A DNA stretch of 22,261 bases, taken from a virus. This document shows, piece after piece, positions 1,598 through 22,089 of this stretch (position 1 is its first letter; the number at the start of each line of letters is the position of its first letter). The notes under the pieces are model-generated. The model did not search any database, was not told where the DNA came from, and saw only the letters and a program-made list of their open reading frames with translations. The stretch spans positions 1 to 22,261 of the IMG/VR virus record IMGVR_UViG_3300031707_000201; one strand, 5' to 3'. The translations under genes were made by a program, and so were the position numbers.

Positions 1598-2794
1598 ATG
1601 AAGGATAAAATTAATATACTATGGGTTTCAGACCTGGTAACACCAACAGGATTTTCAAGAGTATCCCACTCTATACTTGCTAACCTTCCTAGGGACAGAT
1701 ATAATATTGTAGGACTTGGAGTAAACTATAGAGGAGATCCACATGGACTTCCCTTTCCAATATATCCAGCACAATTTGGTGGGGATTTATACGGAATAAA
1801 AAGACTAAAGGACGTATTCAAACGACATCCAATAGACGTAGTATTTATACTAAATGATGTTTGGATTATAAATTCTTACCTAAATGAAATAAAAGAAATT
1901 TTTGGGAAGGAAACTCCTCCAAAGATAGTAATTTATTTTCCAGTAGATGCGGTAGGACACTCCCCCTATTGGTACGATAATTTTGATATAGTACAGAAGG
2001 CGTATACCTACACAGAGTTTGGAAAGAAGGTGGCGGAAACTGCGTGTCCCACCTATAATTTTGGGATTATACCACATGGTATTTCAAAGGATATTTTTCA
2101 CCAACTGTTTGAAAAAAGGAACCAAGCTAAAGAAGTTCTATTTGCTAACTCTAACAACAAAGACCTGTTTAGTGATGAGTCGTTTACCTTTCTAAATGCT
2201 AACCGTAATCAACCAAGAAAAAGACTGGAATTGACTATGGAAGGTTTCAAACTATTTGCAGATGGGAAGCCAATGTCGGTATCTCTATACATGCACTGTG
2301 GTAATGTAGATGCAAAACATATAGATGTTCGTGATCTTGCTTCCAGACTTGGAATAGGTAAGAGATTAATTGTATCTGGAAATGTTTCTGGTATTCAGGG
2401 AGTTTCAGATAACAAACTAAACCTTATTTATAATGCCACAGATGTAGGACTAAACACATCTTTAGGGGAGGGGTGGGGACTTCCAAACATGGAACATGCT
2501 ATTACAGGGGCTCCCCAAATTGTACCAGACCACAGTGCTTGTGGAGAAGTGTACAAAGACATAGGCATCCTGATTCCTACCCACAGTGATTTAATGTTGG
2601 ATGGTGGGGCTATGACGGTAGGTAGGTTAGTAAGTCCAGAAGCAGTAGCCGAGGCTATGGAAAAAATTTATACGGATAAAGAGTTGTATAAAGAGCTATC
2701 TATCAAGACTGTAGCTAAGTTCAGTTCTAAAGAATATAATTGGGAAACCATAGCTAATACTTGGGATAGCGTATTTACAGAGGTAGCAGAATGA
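1598..2794 (+). CDS. Glycosyltransferase, GT-B fold, GT4-like
   Basis: A 398-residue protein with a two-Rossmann (GT-B) layout. The N-terminal half opens with a hydrophobic strand (INILWVSD, residues 5-12) and the glycine loop TPTGFSRV (15-22), typical acceptor-side features. The C-terminal half carries NRNQPRKRLE (from residue 202), where basic residues usually contact the nucleotide-sugar phosphates, and the retaining-enzyme EX7E motif, E291 to E299 within EGWGLPNME. It should transfer a sugar from a nucleotide-sugar donor with retention; donor and acceptor cannot be read. No signal peptide or membrane helix is visible, so it should act in the cytoplasm. AAAGGAG precedes the ATG, and the stop overlaps the next start (ATGA). 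An enzyme inserted between connector and head-closure genes is odd and suggests modification of virion parts or of host glycans. Confidence 0.85.
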   Translation: MKDKINILWVSDLVTPTGFSRVSHSILANLPRDRYNIVGLGVNYRGDPHGLPFPIYPAQFGGDLYGIKRLKDVFKRHPIDVVFILNDVWIINSYLNEIKEIFGKETPPKIVIYFPVDAVGHSPYWYDNFDIVQKAYTYTEFGKKVAETACPTYNFGIIPHGISKDIFHQLFEKRNQAKEVLFANSNNKDLFSDESFTFLNANRNQPRKRLELTMEGFKLFADGKPMSVSLYMHCGNVDAKHIDVRDLASRLGIGKRLIVSGNVSGIQGVSDNKLNLIYNATDVGLNTSLGEGWGLPNMEHAITGAPQIVPDHSACGEVYKDIGILIPTHSDLMLDGGAMTVGRLVSPEAVAEAMEKIYTDKELYKELSIKTVAKFSSKEYNWETIANTWDSVFTEVAE

Positions 2795-5102: not shown

Positions 5103-6293
5103 ATGGCTAAAAGACTAGCAATTCCATCTAAGGAAACCCAGCTACATATAGTTGGGCCTAAGGATGTTTTCAAAGCATCAAGGGTACAGAGGCTGAGCCT
5201 AGGTACTGACATCCCTGCTACTACAGTGGACGAAATTGGTAACTCACTGCATGTTGGGGATACAAAAGACACTCCTAATGTGACTCTTACATTCTCTGCT
5301 TTTGACACAAGTATCAAGATTTTCTCTGCCATGACAGGAAATAACCCAGCAGCTTACCCAGTTTCTGGTGTAGATATTTCACAACTCGGACAGATTGACG
5401 CAATTCTTTTCACAAAGAGTGCAGATATTGCCGACTATGTAAAATCAGGTCATGCCAAAAGGTTACAAATCAGGGACTTTTCATTTAGTTATACTGTAGA
5501 CGGAGAAGCAACAGAGGATTACACCGCTGTTGGTTCAGAAAGAAGGTGGTTGAAGAATGATGTTATTGTAGATAAGTTTTCTACAGGAACTGGTTTCACA
5601 TCAACTCAAATTCCTATACAGTTGAAAAATGCCAATTATGGTCTATCATGTATTGTAGACGGAGCATACTTAGATGAGGTTTCTGGAGCACCAGCCGCAG
5701 GTGAATATAGATTTACCGTAGCAAAGGCTCTAACCCTAGGAGTAGCAGCAGCAAGTCAGGTTATTTTAGTGTATCACTCAAGTCCTACCGGAACTAACTG
5801 GTCAGATATTAGTGATGATACAATTCCTGCCGCAATCAAGGGTAAGGATGTAGGCGTACAAATCCTAGCAAATGATATTCCAAGAGTGCAATCAATCACC
5901 CTAAACGGTAACTTGAATACACAGCCTGTAAAGGAACTTGGTAATAGAAATATTACTGGATACCAGCGTCAAATCCCAACCATTGATGGTACTATCACAG
6001 TACTAGATACAGACACCGAACTTATTAGCCTACTAACCGTAGGTACTCTAAGTGGTGCGGATGTTGAGTGGCAACCTGGCGAGGGATGTACCAGCGTAGA
6101 TCTTTCATTGAAGATTGAACTGATGGACCCATGCGATACCGAATCACCTTACACCGTACTAAAGACCGTATACCTACCATCTATCTCTATAACAGGCGAT
6201 AACTACACTCAAAATGTAAACAACAATGCACAGGTAGTTTTCAACTTCAAGAGTGCAGATGCACAGTGTATTGTCTACAGTGGTGCAATGTAA
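5103..6293 (+). CDS. Major tail tube protein
   Basis: A 396-residue, beta-rich acidic protein in the position of the major tail protein, just after the tail terminator and before chaperones and tape measure. It contains many alternating beta strands, e.g. VTLTFSAFDTSIKIF, LQIRDFSFSYTVDG, SQVILVYHSSPTG, RVQSITLNGNLNTQPVKELGN and a closing AQVVFNFKSADAQ. The phrase pairing an early LQ/REFSFSYTVDGEA strand with late INxSGNLxTxPVxELG is the type expected for stacked tube hexamers. At ~400 residues it is longer than minimal tube proteins (150-250), so one extra surface domain, probably residues ~165-250, is likely. AGGAGG lies 11 bases upstream of the ATG. The strong terminator directly downstream fits a highly expressed gene. 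No sheath gene is adjacent, supporting a non-contractile tail. Confidence 0.75.
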   Translation: MAKRLAIPSKETQLHIVGPKDVFKASRVQRLSLGTDIPATTVDEIGNSLHVGDTKDTPNVTLTFSAFDTSIKIFSAMTGNNPAAYPVSGVDISQLGQIDAILFTKSADIADYVKSGHAKRLQIRDFSFSYTVDGEATEDYTAVGSERRWLKNDVIVDKFSTGTGFTSTQIPIQLKNANYGLSCIVDGAYLDEVSGAPAAGEYRFTVAKALTLGVAAASQVILVYHSSPTGTNWSDISDDTIPAAIKGKDVGVQILANDIPRVQSITLNGNLNTQPVKELGNRNITGYQRQIPTIDGTITVLDTDTELISLLTVGTLSGADVEWQPGEGCTSVDLSLKIELMDPCDTESPYTVLKTVYLPSISITGDNYTQNVNNNAQVVFNFKSADAQCIVYSGAM

Positions 6294-6413: not shown

Positions 6414-7124
6414 ATGCCTGTCGTAGAGAAGAATGATGTTGATATTTCTAGCCTATTCCTATGGAGTAAGCAGAGTACCATTCAAGGACTAAAGAAAAAG
6501 GATATAAAGATATATATTCGACTACTTGGAGATGCGGATATAAATAGAGCCAGAGTTATGGCTCTTAGAAGAAGTGCTGAACTACGCAAGTCATTAAGAG
6601 ACCCAGAATCTGATGATAAGTTAGCATTTATTCCAGATCAGGCAGAACTTAATAAGGATGTACTGGTAGAATCTATCATTATGTATACTCTTAGAGAGAT
6701 TACTAAAAAGGCCATGCAGGACGTAGTTATTCCTAAGCCAAAAGATCCTGGTTCAGATGCGGATACAGAGAGAATGGAAAAATTCCAGAAGGAAGTAGAC
6801 GAGTATCCAAAGGTACGAGAAAAAGCAATTAGGGATCTCATAGAGAAATTGGTAGCCGAGAGAAGGAAAGAACTAGCAGAAAAGGATGAAGATTTCCTAT
6901 ATAAACAGTATCAAGGTGTACTTATTGGAGAGCTATGCGAAGAAGAGTTACTACAGAGATTTAAGGAAGGATGTGTGTTTTTTGGTACATTCAAGGATAA
7001 GAAATTCTCTGAAAAATTCTTCAACTCCTATGAAGAACTGGATAATCTTCCAACAGAAATAAAAAGAAAGTTGATTGACGACTACTCACTGTTGGAGATA
7101 GAATCTGAGAAACTAAAAAAATAG
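6414..7124 (+). CDS. Tail assembly chaperone, upstream frame (gpG analogue)
   Basis: A 236-residue charged, mostly helical protein just upstream of the tape measure, the fixed place of tail assembly chaperones. It holds IKIYIRLLGDADINRARVMALRRSAELRK near the N-terminus, a Lys/Glu-rich middle (~residues 120-155), and a C-terminal helical part ending ESEKLKK. Chaperones of this class bind the tape measure until the tube assembles around it and are absent from virions. The gene ends with AAA AAA TAG; base 7115 plus these codons gives the slippery heptamer A AAA AAA at 7115-7121, and the -1 frame is open from there to 7411. AAGGAG precedes the ATG. Sequence identity to known gpG proteins cannot be judged here; the call rests on synteny and the frameshift architecture. 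Confidence 0.75.
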   Translation: MPVVEKNDVDISSLFLWSKQSTIQGLKKKDIKIYIRLLGDADINRARVMALRRSAELRKSLRDPESDDKLAFIPDQAELNKDVLVESIIMYTLREITKKAMQDVVIPKPKDPGSDADTERMEKFQKEVDEYPKVREKAIRDLIEKLVAERRKELAEKDEDFLYKQYQGVLIGELCEEELLQRFKEGCVFFGTFKDKKFSEKFFNSYEELDNLPTEIKRKLIDDYSLLEIESEKLKK

Positions 7125-7180
7125 CGGGGAGCAATGCTATGTCAGCTATTTGGAGCGTGTCGAAGGCATTGCAAATCCCG
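7115..7180 (+). promoter_or_regulatory. Programmed -1 ribosomal frameshift signal
   Basis: The heptamer A AAA AAA (7115-7121) sits in the correct phase of the upstream frame (CTA AAA AAA TAG) directly before its stop. In the -1 frame, reading continues ATA GCG GGG AGC AAT GCT into the downstream frame with no stop. A stem follows: GCAATGC (7131-7137) pairs perfectly with GCATTGC (7166-7172), extended outward by CGGG (7125-7128) with CCCG (7177-7180), or in another register by GGGA (7127-7130) with TCCC (7176-7179). The spacer is 3 to 5 bases depending on register. This is the arrangement of the lambda G/GT frameshift class. Confidence 0.85.
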
Positions 7181-7411
7181 TTGGACAAGAAGCTGACAAA
7201 ATTGGATGAAGTGCCTCACACCATAAGTTTTGTTATAAGAAAGAGGCAGCAAATAGATAGCTTTAATGAGCTTCCCAAAGAAAAGAGACCTCCAGAGGAT
7301 ATAATTTGGGATGGAACCTCAGAGGATATAGATGAGTGGCTTGATAAAGTATTCAAAAAAGATAGTAGGGAAAAGGATGCAACAATTCTAATTACCGATA
7401 TTGAGGACTAA
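7139..7411 (+). CDS. Tail assembly chaperone, downstream frame (T part of gpGT-like fusion)
   Basis: A 90-residue frame, -1 relative to the upstream chaperone. The ATG at 7139 is the first in frame, but the frame is open leftward to the slippery site at 7115-7121, so the physiological product is probably a fusion: 236 residues, six junction residues (IAGSNA), then these 90, giving 332. The segment is acidic and helical (PEDIIWDGTSEDIDEWLDKVF) and ends in a short strand (ATILITDIED). In the lambda paradigm the T extension recruits the tube protein while G binds the tape measure. A GGAG at 7128-7131 is seven bases before ATG, so independent initiation cannot be excluded. It ends 3 bases before the tape measure start. 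Confidence 0.7.
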   Translation: MSAIWSVSKALQIPLDKKLTKLDEVPHTISFVIRKRQQIDSFNELPKEKRPPEDIIWDGTSEDIDEWLDKVFKKDSREKDATILITDIED

Positions 7412-7414
7412 AAT

Positions 7415-10400
7415 ATGCCTAGTAGACTAGAACAATTTGCACAGCAAGTAAGATTAGCGGCTATAAATGTAACGGACTTGACAAGACTTCTTGGTTCCGC
7501 TACTACAGTATTGGCCCAAATGGATAAGGAACTATTCGCAACCAATGGAAACTTAGTAAGATCCAATACGGCTATTGCTAATATAGCCGCTAAAAGAACT
7601 GCTCTTCAGACCCAGATAACAGCCGCTCAAGATCCAAATTCAAGGGTTCCAAGAACTGATGTTATGGCTATGGAGCGTAGATTAGCATCTCTACAGGCAA
7701 GAGAACAAATTCTAACAACTTCCTTGACCGCTAGACAAGCCTCTTTTAATGCTCTGCAAACTGAGAGAGCCGGAATAGCTCAAATATCCCCAACCCAGGA
7801 TATTATTACAAGACTTAAAGCAATACAAACTCTTACTGCTGAATACAATCGTTTGGGACAAAGTATAACAAGGATGCAAAATCTAGGACCTGCTGGAGCA
7901 GCTGGAATACAGAGTCTAAACAATAGAAGAATGGTAGTAAGGGACGTTATGGATCTGAACTGGAAATCAGGTCCAATGGATTACTTTAATCTTCAACAGA
8001 ATACTCTAGGTGGATCTGCTGCAGCTCAGAGATATGTACAGAACCAGACATCTCTAGCAAGAGCCAACCAAATGAGGCAGGTACTATCAACTGAACAAGT
8101 AAGAATAAACAATGCCAGTACTGCATCAGGATTTTATTCCTTTGACGATATTCGTAAACTTGAGTCCATAGCTAGAGCTCTACTAAGAATTCAGGAGATA
8201 GAGCAGAGACTTATACAAACACAGTCTCAACTAGGTATTCCACCAATACTAAATCAGACTACTCCTCATCCTCAAGCTGGAGCAAATGCCAATCTTCCTC
8301 CATATGCACAAGCATGGAATGGAATGACCCCAGCTCAACAATCAAGACAACTTGCATTGGATAGGGATGCTGCTGACGTAGAAAGGACTCAGCGTACCTA
8401 TCAAACAACAGATAGATATACCAGTGCAAGAAAAATAGCAGAAGAACGTGGATTTACTCCAGGAACTCTAAGAAGTATTAAGGGTTCTGGTATTGAGGGT
8501 ATTGAGAAGCTTACTTATGCTTACAAGGATATGCAGGGAATAAACAGAGAATTAGCTTTATTCACCGACATAAATGGTAGGGTACTTCCAACAGCTTCAA
8601 GACAATTTAGTAATTTTGCATCATCAGTAGGTAGAGACTTCAGAGAACTTATGAAGTGGACTATTGCTATTCAGCTTATCTATGGACCTATCAGAAAACT
8701 ACAAGAAATAATGACTCTTATGATAGGAAACGAGGTAAGACTGGCTGACGCTTCTATTGCTGTCTCCGACTCTACTCTAAAAATGGGTCAGATATTTGAT
8801 ATAGCTAATGATGCTGCTAATGCAATGGGTGAAAATGTTTCCGAGGTTATTACTAACTTCTCCGAAGCATATCAAGCAACAGGTGGTATGGGAACTGCTA
8901 TGGAAAGAACAGCAGCAGCCACCCAACTGATGAACGATGCTCTAATCCTGTCTAAACTATCTTCTCTAAATGCCACACAATCTATTGATGTTCTTGCCTC
9001 TGCCCTTAGACAATCAGGAATGGAACTTACAGAGGGAGGTACTTTACTTGACAAGTGGGTTAGAGTTACTAAGGTAGCTAATGTAAGTCTTGATACTCTA
9101 GCCACAGGTTTCTCAGTATTGGGTGAGGCAGCAAGTGCCGCAGGTCTAAATGATGAGCAATTAAACGCAGTCCTTGCAGTAACTTCGGAAACAATGGGGG
9201 TTACTGGTAGGGAAGCTGCTAATATGGCGAGGTCTTTTGTTGCTGGTTTCCAATCCGATAAAGCTGTAGCTGCACTTAACTCAGTTGGTATTGCTACTAA
9301 GACTACCAGTGGAGAAATGAGAACCCTCTTAGATCTTCAACGGGATCTATATAACGCTAAACAAGCGGGTACCATCTCCCCAGGAGTATACTCGAAACTA
9401 ACTCTTGCAATAGGTGGTGGTACAAGGAGACAGGCAGCGGTAGCTGGATTTATTGAATCCTTCCCCCGTATAAGTCAAATAGTAGATGCACAATCAAATG
9501 TATCAGGCCAAGCTTCCGCAGCTCTAGCAAAACAACTAGATACTGTTCAGACATCCATGACCAGATTACAGAACGCTTTCCAATCTCTAGCCCAAAGTTT
9601 GGGGGATGAGGGTGGTCTATTAGATATATTTAAGGTAGTATTGGATTTATTCTCCGCAGTAACCACTATGGCGGACAAGATGTTTGAGAGTGTCGGAAAA
9701 GCCGGACCCGTTCTTGCTCTAGCTCTGGGAGCTGGAATTATGATAAAGTCTCAGGGTCCTCTGTGGACAAAGAATTTTGCTGGTAGTGTGGGTGTTGGAG
9801 TAGCTAATCTCACTGGTGGGGTAGGACCAAACGGAGAACCAAATAGATATGGAACTTTTGCACAGAATGTTCTATTGGGGGGTAGACCTACACAACCAGG
9901 AACACCTGCAACAGCAATATCAGCAGAAAAAATAACTGGAATAGTTGGTTCTGCCATACTTATGGGCGTATTACCAGCTCTTACCAACTTTGGTAACTAC
10001 GGGGCAGGGAAGGATAAGTTTGGTGCTGCAAAAGGAACTGCTGATATAATAGGAGCTGGAATAGGAGCTGTTCTTATTCCACAAGCTCCAATGATTGGTG
10101 CAGCTATCGGAATGGCAATCTCGGAGGCATTTGTTACTGCAGCAACCAAGGATTTAACAGCATTATTGGTTAGCGGAGGAAAGGAAGTTGCTTCCGGACG
10201 AGGAACATCTCAATATGATACAACCGTTCAAGAAAGACTTGGGGGTGGTAATGCGAAACAATGGTTAGCCAGTATAGTAGCCTGGATAGATGCCACTGCA
10301 ATCAAGGCAGTTGTTCCAAATATACCCGAAGGGTACGGAGCAAAACTACCAACTACAGAGAGTGTGTTATATCAATGGCTTGGAAAGAATATCTTTGGTG

Positions 10401-12148
10401 GTGGAGAGAAGGCTGGAGGTAAAGAAGCACAGGCAGAATTTGATGCGTGGTACAACTCACAAATAGCCTCTGGAGCAATAACACCAGAAACAACCTTTAG
10501 ACCCTTTGAAGATGCAACAAAAAAGGAACAAACCGATCACGGTGCTTACATTGATACCCAAAGAAAACTAAGAGAACAGGAATTATTGGATGATCTAATA
10601 AAAGGAAAAACAACCCCCACAGCCTATACAGGAAAAATGGAGGGTCTAGGAACTTTTAAGGAAGTATCAACAAGATTCTTTGCAGCATTTGGGGATGAAT
10701 GGATAAAGATAAGTGATGATATAAATACAGCCGAGGACGCATATTCAGCTTTCATGGATATATTTATGTATGGAGGTGAGGAACAAATTGCAAGTTTGAC
10801 TGCTATGGTAACGGATGTGGCGGAACTTACAGCTAAAGTAGAGGCACTAAAGGAAGCTGGTGCAAGCAGGGAAACTACAGCTCCATTAGAAGCAGAAATA
10901 GCAAGACTTCAGGAAATATTAGCTCAAAGTGCTAATGCAATGGCAAATCAAACCTTTTTTGAGAAGAATCCAGTACCCCAAATGTTTAATCAAGGACGGG
11001 CTATTACTGGTGATAAGGCCATGCTAAAAGAATGGCTACTAAGGAGTGGAGCCGCAGAAGCGGGATTCTTAGGTTCTAAGGGTGGTGGAAATCAAACCAG
11101 AGAACAAATAGAGGCATATAGAACCCTTACCAATGAAGATATATCAATTCCTATTGAAGAGGGAGGACAGATAGTTTACAAGAAACTTACTCAACTAGCT
11201 GAAGATCTTGGAATCCCTCAAGAGCTAATAGGAGGGGATTGGCTACAAAAGATATTTGATGAGATGATAGCAGAAGGTAAACTGGATATAAAGATAGAGG
11301 TAGTACAAAAAGGACTAACCGATATTGGACTTCCTAGAAGTCAAGAGGGACTACTTACTCAATGGGTAAACTACTTTACAGCCATGTTTAAGAATTGGGG
11401 AGTTACCGATGAAACCAGACCTCAAGTTATTATTTGGGAAGATGGTCAATGGAGCGAAATGAAGGCTGGAGATAAAGCCTTTGCTATGGCTCAAGAGAAG
11501 ATGAATGAAACCCTTACCAAGCAACTTGAGCAGGGTATGTGGAATATTCCAGAAGGGGCTACCTGGATGCTACCTCTACAGAGCGCATACTACAATGGAC
11601 CTCCTCAAGGATCTGGCACCCCACTAGGACCTCCAGCAGTTACTCCAGGTCCTGGTGGTGGACCCATATCTCTCGATAAAACCAGATGGCCAGTTCCAGA
11701 CAAAAACTGGTATACCTATCCAGCTGGAATTGCTGGTTCTACAGGAAGTGGATTGATAGAACCACCAAATCCAGATCGTAATAATTCTAAACAAGCCAAA
11801 ATAAGTGAGGGACTAATTGGATTAGGCGGAGGAGGACTATCTGAAGGAAAATATGGTATAGGAATCGGAGCTCCTGGTTCTCCAGGAACATCTCCAGCTA
11901 CTATATTTGAAAGCCTTATGAGATTAATAAACATGTGGCAGATGAACTCAACAAGTCCTTCTAAAGTTGGAAAAGGTGTGTTTGGAACTGAGGTAATGCC
12001 CACAGCACCAAAGGTAAGTTTGAATCTTACCAATACTACCACACTTACTTTGGACGGAAGAATACTAGCACTTTCTATGAAAAAGTACATGGTAGAAGAT
12101 ATGAATAACGCCAAAAGCACTTTAGGTGCTACAGGTAGTGTAATTTAA
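7415..12148 (+). CDS. Tail tape measure protein
   Basis: The largest gene, 1577 residues. Residues 1-170 are Gln/Ala-rich coiled coil. Around residues 430-700 is a region resembling the TP901-type tape measure core (PhageMin_Tail): DASIAVSDSTLKMG, EVITNFSEAYQATGG, LDTLATGFSVLGEAASAAGL and AAVAGFIESFPRI. Hydrophobic stretches follow at about 766-778, 843-860 and 878-907 (Gly/Ala-rich), then another helical part and a Gly/Pro-rich C-terminal segment near 1395-1500. The protein occupies the tail lumen and sets tail length; using the usual ~0.15 nm per residue gives at most about 237 nm. The hydrophobic segments are typical of the part inserted in the host membrane during DNA injection. TTGAGGACT precedes the ATG; the gap to the chaperone is only 3 bases. 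A lytic domain is not evident. Confidence 0.9.
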   Translation: MPSRLEQFAQQVRLAAINVTDLTRLLGSATTVLAQMDKELFATNGNLVRSNTAIANIAAKRTALQTQITAAQDPNSRVPRTDVMAMERRLASLQAREQILTTSLTARQASFNALQTERAGIAQISPTQDIITRLKAIQTLTAEYNRLGQSITRMQNLGPAGAAGIQSLNNRRMVVRDVMDLNWKSGPMDYFNLQQNTLGGSAAAQRYVQNQTSLARANQMRQVLSTEQVRINNASTASGFYSFDDIRKLESIARALLRIQEIEQRLIQTQSQLGIPPILNQTTPHPQAGANANLPPYAQAWNGMTPAQQSRQLALDRDAADVERTQRTYQTTDRYTSARKIAEERGFTPGTLRSIKGSGIEGIEKLTYAYKDMQGINRELALFTDINGRVLPTASRQFSNFASSVGRDFRELMKWTIAIQLIYGPIRKLQEIMTLMIGNEVRLADASIAVSDSTLKMGQIFDIANDAANAMGENVSEVITNFSEAYQATGGMGTAMERTAAATQLMNDALILSKLSSLNATQSIDVLASALRQSGMELTEGGTLLDKWVRVTKVANVSLDTLATGFSVLGEAASAAGLNDEQLNAVLAVTSETMGVTGREAANMARSFVAGFQSDKAVAALNSVGIATKTTSGEMRTLLDLQRDLYNAKQAGTISPGVYSKLTLAIGGGTRRQAAVAGFIESFPRISQIVDAQSNVSGQASAALAKQLDTVQTSMTRLQNAFQSLAQSLGDEGGLLDIFKVVLDLFSAVTTMADKMFESVGKAGPVLALALGAGIMIKSQGPLWTKNFAGSVGVGVANLTGGVGPNGEPNRYGTFAQNVLLGGRPTQPGTPATAISAEKITGIVGSAILMGVLPALTNFGNYGAGKDKFGAAKGTADIIGAGIGAVLIPQAPMIGAAIGMAISEAFVTAATKDLTALLVSGGKEVASGRGTSQYDTTVQERLGGGNAKQWLASIVAWIDATAIKAVVPNIPEGYGAKLPTTESVLYQWLGKNIFGGGEKAGGKEAQAEFDAWYNSQIASGAITPETTFRPFEDATKKEQTDHGAYIDTQRKLREQELLDDLIKGKTTPTAYTGKMEGLGTFKEVSTRFFAAFGDEWIKISDDINTAEDAYSAFMDIFMYGGEEQIASLTAMVTDVAELTAKVEALKEAGASRETTAPLEAEIARLQEILAQSANAMANQTFFEKNPVPQMFNQGRAITGDKAMLKEWLLRSGAAEAGFLGSKGGGNQTREQIEAYRTLTNEDISIPIEEGGQIVYKKLTQLAEDLGIPQELIGGDWLQKIFDEMIAEGKLDIKIEVVQKGLTDIGLPRSQEGLLTQWVNYFTAMFKNWGVTDETRPQVIIWEDGQWSEMKAGDKAFAMAQEKMNETLTKQLEQGMWNIPEGATWMLPLQSAYYNGPPQGSGTPLGPPAVTPGPGGGPISLDKTRWPVPDKNWYTYPAGIAGSTGSGLIEPPNPDRNNSKQAKISEGLIGLGGGGLSEGKYGIGIGAPGSPGTSPATIFESLMRLINMWQMNSTSPSKVGKGVFGTEVMPTAPKVSLNLTNTTTLTLDGRILALSMKKYMVEDMNNAKSTLGATGSVI

Positions 12149-20164: not shown

Positions 20165-20746
20165 ATGACAGACGAAGTAAAAATTACAATAGGAGTTCCC
20201 AATACTGGGAGCATCAAGACAAACACGGCACTATCTTTAATATCAATAGTAGGTTCTTCACAGTGGCCTACTCATACACACTTTCAAAGTGGGTGCTATG
20301 TACATGAAAATAGAGAGAAGATAGTTCTAGCCGCTCAAGCGGCAGGGTCAAGCCACCTGTTCTTTCTGGACTCAGATATGTTTCCGGATGATGATGTGGT
20401 AATAAAATTATTGGCACATAACAAGGATGTGGTGGGTGTCCACTATAATCAGAGGGGATTTCCGCTAATAAGTACAGTGAAGTTTGCCGATGAGAATGAG
20501 GAGATATATCCAGTACAGGGATTACCGGATACTTTGTTCCCTTGCTATGCAGTTGGAACGGGTTGTATGCTAATAAATTTACGAGTATTTGATATTATAG
20601 CTAAACCTTGGTTCTCCTTCGATACTTATCATGGGGATATACTCGGAGAGGACATATGGTTCTGCCGACAGGTAAAAAGAGCTGGATTAGAAGTTTGGTG
20701 TGATCCAACTATCAAAGTAGGACATATTGGAGACTATGAATACTAA
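20165..20746 (+). CDS. Glycosyltransferase, GT-A fold
   Basis: A 193-residue cytoplasmic-type protein. The opening strand and loop (KITIGVPNTGSIKT, residues ~6-19) fit the nucleotide-binding start of a GT-A Rossmann-like fold. FFLDSDMFP holds the DxD metal/nucleotide-sugar motif at D69-S70-D71. GEDIWFCRQ at 161-169 matches the conserved ED base/acceptor motif, and a late His (H187, in VGHIG) may complete the metal site. It would transfer a sugar from a nucleotide-diphospho-sugar with divalent metal; substrates are not predictable. It is shorter than most GT2 enzymes (220-300 aa), close to minimal phage-encoded forms. It is preceded by its own extended -10 promoter and follows a Ser/Thr-rich fibre protein. 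It has a different fold from the 1598-2794 enzyme, so the two should do different steps. Confidence 0.8.
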   Translation: MTDEVKITIGVPNTGSIKTNTALSLISIVGSSQWPTHTHFQSGCYVHENREKIVLAAQAAGSSHLFFLDSDMFPDDDVVIKLLAHNKDVVGVHYNQRGFPLISTVKFADENEEIYPVQGLPDTLFPCYAVGTGCMLINLRVFDIIAKPWFSFDTYHGDILGEDIWFCRQVKRAGLEVWCDPTIKVGHIGDYEY

Positions 20747-21196: not shown

Positions 21197-21216
21197 TGAA
21201 TGAGGAGTAAAAAAAC

Positions 21217-22089
21217 ATGACTGATATAAGAGTAAAAGGTATTGATGTAAGTCACTGGCAAGGTTTGGTAAATTGGGAACAAGCCAAACGCAACGGGGCT
21301 AAATTCATGTTTGCAAAAGCCAGCCAATGGGTAATAGACCCCATGTTCAAAGAGAATTGGAAGAACGCCAAGGCGGTTGGCTTGCCCCGTGGTGCTTATC
21401 ACTATTTGGATTGGGGTTTGAGTGAACTGACCCAAGCTAAAATCTTCTGTGATGCTATGGATGGGGATTGGGGCGAGTTACCACCCGTTTGTGATTTTGA
21501 GATGGACCCGAAACCTTTTGGGTTGAGTGCCGCAGTAGCAAACGGAAAGCTCTGGAATTTTGTGACCCAGGTAGAGAAGCTTACACATAAAATTCCAATG
21601 ATATATACAGGTTACTATTATTGGAATGATTGGGGAAGCACTGGAATAAACTGGGCACGTTTTCCTCTATGGCTTCCTTGGTATGCCAGCGAATTGTATA
21701 TCCATCTTCGTACCCTGACCAATACCGGAACAGGTGCTCCTAAGCCTTGGAAAGACAAGGACTTTTGGCAACGTACAGACCGTGCCAATGGCATAGACTA
21801 CGGTTGCCAAAGTAAGCAAGTAGATGAAAGCCTCTTCAAAGGAGACGAAATTACTCTGGCACAGTTCTGTGGTGGAAGTTTACCACCCCCTACCCCACAG
21901 CCAGTTGGCTTGAAGTTCATTCTCAAGAACAATGCCAACATTAGATCTGGGCCTTCTACCTATTATCCAGTCGTTCGTATTGAAAAGACAGGTACTGTTA
22001 TCACACTAAAAAGCACAACTGTGACCAATACCTATGCTCAATTGATTGATGGAAATTGGGTAACATTTTCATTTTTATTGCCCGTATAG
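21217..22089 (+). CDS. Endolysin: GH25 muramidase with C-terminal SH3-like domain
   Basis: A 290-residue lysozyme. Residues 1-~215 are GH25: GIDVSHWQG with Asp10 at the start of the barrel, KFMFAKAS, GAYHYLDW, and CDFEMD (near residues 91-96), which holds the acidic catalytic residues, then MIYTGYYYWND and LWLPWYAS. A Pro-rich linker (LPPPTPQP) leads to an SH3_3-like wall-binding domain, NNANIRSGPSTYYPVV onward, which looks slightly short. It cleaves the N-acetylmuramic acid-N-acetylglucosamine bond of host peptidoglycan. No signal peptide is visible, so release would need a holin. Arg codons here are 7 CGN to 2 AGA, against mainly AGA/AGG in neighbours, and GC appears higher, so it probably came from another source. 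It has its own promoter, and GAGGAG precedes the ATG. Confidence 0.9.
   Translation: MTDIRVKGIDVSHWQGLVNWEQAKRNGAKFMFAKASQWVIDPMFKENWKNAKAVGLPRGAYHYLDWGLSELTQAKIFCDAMDGDWGELPPVCDFEMDPKPFGLSAAVANGKLWNFVTQVEKLTHKIPMIYTGYYYWNDWGSTGINWARFPLWLPWYASELYIHLRTLTNTGTGAPKPWKDKDFWQRTDRANGIDYGCQSKQVDESLFKGDEITLAQFCGGSLPPPTPQPVGLKFILKNNANIRSGPSTYYPVVRIEKTGTVITLKSTTVTNTYAQLIDGNWVTFSFLLPV

Follow-up and report, generated by a model that had tools for sequence, protein, structure and literature searches.

Comparative evidence for a lambda G/GT-type programmed -1 frameshift just upstream of a phage tape measure gene

In the virus record IMGVR_UViG_3300031707_000201, whose 22,261 bases are called the window below, a pair of tail-assembly genes that directly precedes the tape measure gene is very probably expressed through a programmed -1 ribosomal frameshift of the lambda G/GT type. 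Frameshifting in tail genes is well known in tailed phages and widely conserved; the pair described here is a new and unusually well-supported case. Its clade offers a slip site in 64/64 sequences together with a hairpin backed by synonymous covariation.

The gene pair and its relatives

The frame-0 ORF (6414-7121; 6414..7124 with its TAG at 7122-7124; + strand, as are the other features of the gene pair and its two neighbours) has 236 codons and ends in GAG AAA CTA AAA AAA TAG. These last codons contain the slippery heptamer A_AAA_AAA (7115..7121), in the phase that fits tandem -1 slippage and with the stop codon directly after it. The first codon read after a slip would be ATA (7121-7123), from which the -1 frame continues as ATA GCG GGG AGC AAT GCT ATG... 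and translates as IAGSNAMSAIWSVSKALQIPLD..., remaining open to 7408 with its stop at 7411. This T-like extension (7121..7411 including the stop; IAGSNAMSAIW...) adds 96 residues, giving a predicted fusion of 236+96 = 332 residues with KLKK-IAGSNAMSAIWSVSK (KLKK-IAGSNA) across the junction. The preliminary description had placed A AAA AAA in the -1 slippery phase right before TAG and had predicted a 236-residue protein together with a 332-residue fusion; the sequence agrees on the first point and the ORF coordinates on both lengths. Only two A7 runs occur in the window (7115 and 21209), and no T7 run. The second of them (21209-21215) starts 8 bases 5' of the ATG of a GH25 lysozyme-like gene (21217-22089; PF01183, E 4e-29); it falls in the ribosome-binding region of that gene and is not a slip site.

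Relatives were collected from IMG/VR with two peptide motifs of the second frame, NELPKEK and RKRQQID, and a degenerate form, yielding 43 and then 79 loci. The motifs lie about 40-55 codons 3' of the slip site, so the sample is unselected for the slip site itself. Removal of duplicates over 220 bases left 64 distinct sequences, the window included. Identity to the window is about 41-81% in frame 2 and 23-67% in frame 0, the latter having homologues in 62 aligned relatives. A tblastn search of 50,697 phage records (GenBank) returned no relative for either frame. The sole match among genome contigs, L139 (DYKD01000020.1), is binned with Brevinema andersonii in a sample named SulCav. It is probably a phage contig co-binned with the spirochaete MAG and does not identify the host, because it is identical across the compared 220 bases to the IMG/VR viral contig L069.

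The slip site and the downstream hairpin

An in-phase heptamer is found exactly where the frame-2 homology starts in all 64 distinct sequences, as A_AAA_AAA in 59 and in five relatives as A_AAA_AAC, another tandem-slip heptamer. Elsewhere in the same frame-0 genes, in which 66% of the lysine codons are AAA, the pattern NNA AAA AA(A/C) stands in phase at only 4 of 14,767 codons. The -1 frame lacks an intervening stop in the window, as had been described, and throughout the set. A comparative alignment had been suggested as a check, with homologues lacking the A-run, or having stops between the frames, taken as evidence against the shift; the 64 sequences contain neither, and the slip site is conserved in phase in every one. 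The stop follows the heptamer directly in 24/64 (the window and 23 relatives), and in the other 40 the zero frame extends 6-18 codons past it. A conserved upstream Shine-Dalgarno-like stimulator was sought in the relatives and none was found, such sequences occupying scattered minority positions only. The leucine codon that gives the slip site its first A (7113-7115 in the window) is CTA in 52/64 and TTA in 12/64; elsewhere in the same genes, leucine TTA (485) is commoner than CTA (328). The codon before the slip is possibly under extra constraint.

A predicted stimulatory hairpin lies 3' of the heptamer, with a 5' arm GCAATGC (7131..7137) and a 3' arm GCATTGC (7166..7172). The perfect 7-bp stem noted earlier is thus confirmed in the window, and compensatory synonymous changes are found in its relatives. 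The predicted fold of 7122-7200 reaches -26.3 kcal/mol, which is a z of -2.6 against dinucleotide shuffles, in line with the folding check that had been proposed, and a z of -3.9 against sequences recoded synonymously for that peptide. An Rfam search of the window returned no known RNA family.

Covariation was counted in the 35 sequences that share the window's stem layout, in which two variable pairs of third codon positions change together. Asn3 x Ala3 is C-G in 19, T-A in 15 and mismatched in 1 (Fisher 5e-9), and Ser3 x Leu3 is C-G in 22, T-A in 11 and T-G in 2 (Fisher 2e-7); the base changes in stem pairs are synonymous in nearly all cases. The two rank first and second of the 253 third-position pairs within codons 1-23, with mutual information z values of 28.6 and 14.6, the next pair standing at 10.1, a level reachable by relatedness alone. 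On the alignment, 90% of the cells of the inner helix are paired and four of its pairs show double changes. When the 3' partners are slid by 1-3 columns, pairing over the whole structure drops from 77% to 28-36%. Across all 64 sequences the mean helix score is 18.1 vs 11.0 for synonymous recodings (the maximum of 300 null sets being 11.9), and 45/64 exceed the 95th percentile of their own null. Tree-independent pairs favour covariation by 4 to 0 and about 4.4 to 0, numbers too few for a sign test at 0.05. Taken together, the comparative data show selection on the 7-bp stem.

Not every relative has the hairpin: some nine of them (L092, L095, L107, L110-L112, L115, L129 and L137) form a clade that keeps the slip site with a weak or absent stem. 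The outer 4-bp helix (CGGG at 7125..7128 with CCCG at 7177..7180) is present in the window's fold as had been described, but it is not conserved: it was dropped as a component of the conserved signal because only 55% of its cells are paired in the relatives, with zero double changes. The structure had been said to begin 3-5 bases after the slip site, and this does not hold for the conserved part: the outer helix alone starts at 3 nt, whereas the conserved stem starts at +10. Since the outer helix is not conserved, about 9 nt effectively separate the slip site from the stem, a distance at the edge of what is given for stimulatory stems (5-9 nt; PMC5009743).

In other clades the 3' arm lies elsewhere. 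Eleven relatives with SNG in place of SNA (SSG in L118) carry a 5' arm GCAACGG that pairs with CCGTTGC at +57 to +63, which is 12 nt further 3' than in the window; in L118 the arms read GTAGCGG and CCGCTAC, a compensatory change. The 3' arm of L128, L130 and L131 is located at +34 to +40 (GCAACGC/GCGTTGC), 11 nt nearer than the window's, and L134 and L135 have helices of 11-12 bp that end at +41/+42. It therefore seems reasonably likely that the hairpin has been evolutionarily rewired, the 5' arm staying fixed at +10 to +16 and the 3' arm occupying at least three places within the coding sequence (+45-51, +57-63 and +34-40), with complementarity restored each time and the frameshift signal kept. 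The changing position of the 3' arm is what makes this case most interesting.

Proposed mechanism and competing explanations

Most ribosomes would stop at the TAG (7122-7124) and release the 236-residue G-like protein. A minority would be held up by the hairpin, whose stem starts 9 nt downstream, and both tRNA-Lys, one in the P site and one in the A site, would slip together from A_AAA_AAA onto AAA AAA in the -1 frame. Reading would then resume at ATA, producing the 332-residue G-T fusion, which might help to load tail tube subunits on the tape measure, as in lambda. Comparison of related sequences shows the slip site, its register and the selection on the hairpin; that the shift occurs, how often it does so and what the fusion does in loading are inferred from lambda (PMC5009743). 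Shifting of about 10% has been measured for a published A_AAA_AAA cassette and of 6-7% for tail chaperone sites of phages (PMC3711429), so that no unusual mechanism is needed.

The same fusion could also arise by another slip step, in which termination at the adjacent TAG is slow, the P-site tRNA-Lys slips alone (on A_AAA) and the stop codon acts as the stimulator. The stop immediately after the heptamer in the window and 23 relatives fits such a step, but the full heptamer is equally kept in the 40/64 sequences whose zero frame runs 6-18 codons on, and among the 35 sequences that share the window's stem layout the hairpin persists with or without an adjacent stop. As the principal route this step is unlikely; termination-assisted P-site slippage at an adjacent TAG may nevertheless contribute, yielding the same protein.

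Slippage of RNA polymerase on the A7 run, leaving some mRNAs with one additional A (or two fewer) and thus bringing T into frame, has very little probability. A-runs can cause such slippage, many insertion sequences exploit it (PMC5009743), and a stop straight after the run in 24/64 looks compatible with it. The run, however, is only 7 A long, and 6 A in five relatives, whereas realignment has been tied to A-runs longer than 7 (PMC3711429). The exact codon phase is moreover constant in all sequences, and the selected hairpin lies 3' of the run: with the polymerase still on the A-run, the nascent RNA cannot yet fold into it. Tandem slippage of the ribosome is preferred for these reasons.

The ATG of the second frame (7139..7141) lies in the hairpin loop, 15 nt past the stop, and is preceded at suitable spacing by the Shine-Dalgarno-like GGGGAG (7126-7131). 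Among the 63 relatives, codon 7 of frame 2 is ATG in L062 and L098 only and ATA, ATT, GTA or the like in nearly all others; ten of the 64 sequences have no ATG, GTG or TTG within the first 30 codons of frame 2. Upstream of the slip site, none of the 64 has any of these three codons in the open part of the -1 frame. Frame-2 protein homology (I-A-x-S-N) starts at the first post-slip codon, upstream of the window's ATG. Two separately translated genes, with T started from ATG 7139 by re-initiation after the TAG through the well-placed GGGGAG, would be the least probable arrangement of all, as the ATG is replaced in nearly all relatives, ten of them lack any of the three start codons up to codon 30, protein conservation begins upstream of it and the conserved heptamer would be left unexplained. 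Separate initiation is thus not the mechanism of the family, because the ATG recurs in two relatives only and ten sequences have no start up to codon 30. The earlier suggestion that the loop ATG gives the second frame at low level can be kept in part: minor separate initiation of T is possible in the window's phage, because of the GGGGAG before the ATG, but this accessory start would be no feature of the family, the ATG being nearly unique to this phage.

Gene context and known frameshift systems

The gene pair is flanked by a probable tail tube gene (5103..6293, 396 aa) and by the gene for a tape measure protein (7415..12148, 1577 aa), which matches PF10145 (PhageMin_Tail, E 2e-10) and phrog_991, tail length tape measure protein (E 6e-9). 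The tail tube assignment is drawn from position, because the Phage_tube_2 match reaches just E 0.28. Where the locus of a relative extends far enough, a long ORF nearly always starts within a few bases of the frame-2 end, and the adjacent ORF matched PF10145 in 10/10 divergent relatives tested.

Neither of the window's two proteins gave a match in Pfam and PHROG searches or in a search of solved structures. AF2 models were confident for the G-like protein (pLDDT 91) and moderate for the T-like one (pLDDT 72). Foldseek found no significant match for these models; the matches to chaperones were not significant, the HK97 chaperone 2ob9 appearing at E 2.0 only. For single members of the family, PHROG chaperone families come up at E 0.0017 and 0.004. 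The term tail assembly chaperone, used in the preliminary description, is accordingly retained as a functional assignment suggested by position and architecture beside PF10145 tape measure genes, and it does not extend to likeness of sequence or fold.

The arrangement resembles lambda G/GT in having two frames immediately 5' of the tape measure gene, a -1 shift near the end of the first, long and short (predicted) products with a common N-terminus, and a second frame without a conserved start. The slip site of lambda is G_GGA_AAG, whereas A_AAA_AAA or A_AAA_AAC is used here. The present clade also differs from lambda in its clade-wide covarying downstream hairpin and in proteins for which no resemblance to known chaperones could be detected in either sequence or fold. 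The frameshift in lambda tail assembly has been described earlier (Levin 1993; Xu 2004, 2013, 2014; reviewed in PMC5009743). In lambda, the tape measure protein is bound by gpG and by the less abundant fusion gpGT, whose T part brings in the tail tube protein, and the proportion of the two products is important (PMC5009743).

The cassettes of IS elements and dnaX (PMC4066793, PMC5009743) share with the present case an A-rich tandem lysine heptamer and a stem that follows it after about 5-9 nt; they belong to other genes, and no conserved upstream Shine-Dalgarno stimulator accompanies the slip site here. In E. coli the A-rich heptamer that shifts most readily is A_AAA_AAG, which none of the 64 sequences has. 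The HK97-like cluster of tail chaperone frameshifts (6-7%, PMC3711429) appears to share the gene role, assigned here by architecture, and the recoding; no sequence relation to it was found.

Downstream RNA stimulators at tail-gene frameshift sites have so far been poorly supported; a survey of E. coli genomes reported a conserved potential hairpin in 3/5 phage clusters, relevant-looking in one only (PMC4066793). The role of the stimulator in the G:GT ratio could be tested in this clade with natural variants, such as stem-bearing and stem-poor, A7 and A6C, or stop-adjacent and stop-distant sequences. The frameshift would also put the gene model right in a lineage where automatic annotation would call two separate ORFs and where the proteins at the chaperone position have no match in Pfam, in PHROG or among the phage records.

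A glycosyltransferase-like ORF of the window (1598-2794) lies inside the phage structural module, its Glyco_trans_1_4 match (E 2e-5) being below the curated cut-off, and a second ORF of glycosyltransferase-like look (20165-20746) has no Pfam match. The first ORF (1-732), cut by the left end of the window, is made up of degenerate repeats, each about 20 residues long (VQHNILVVDNATQLQTAE-like).
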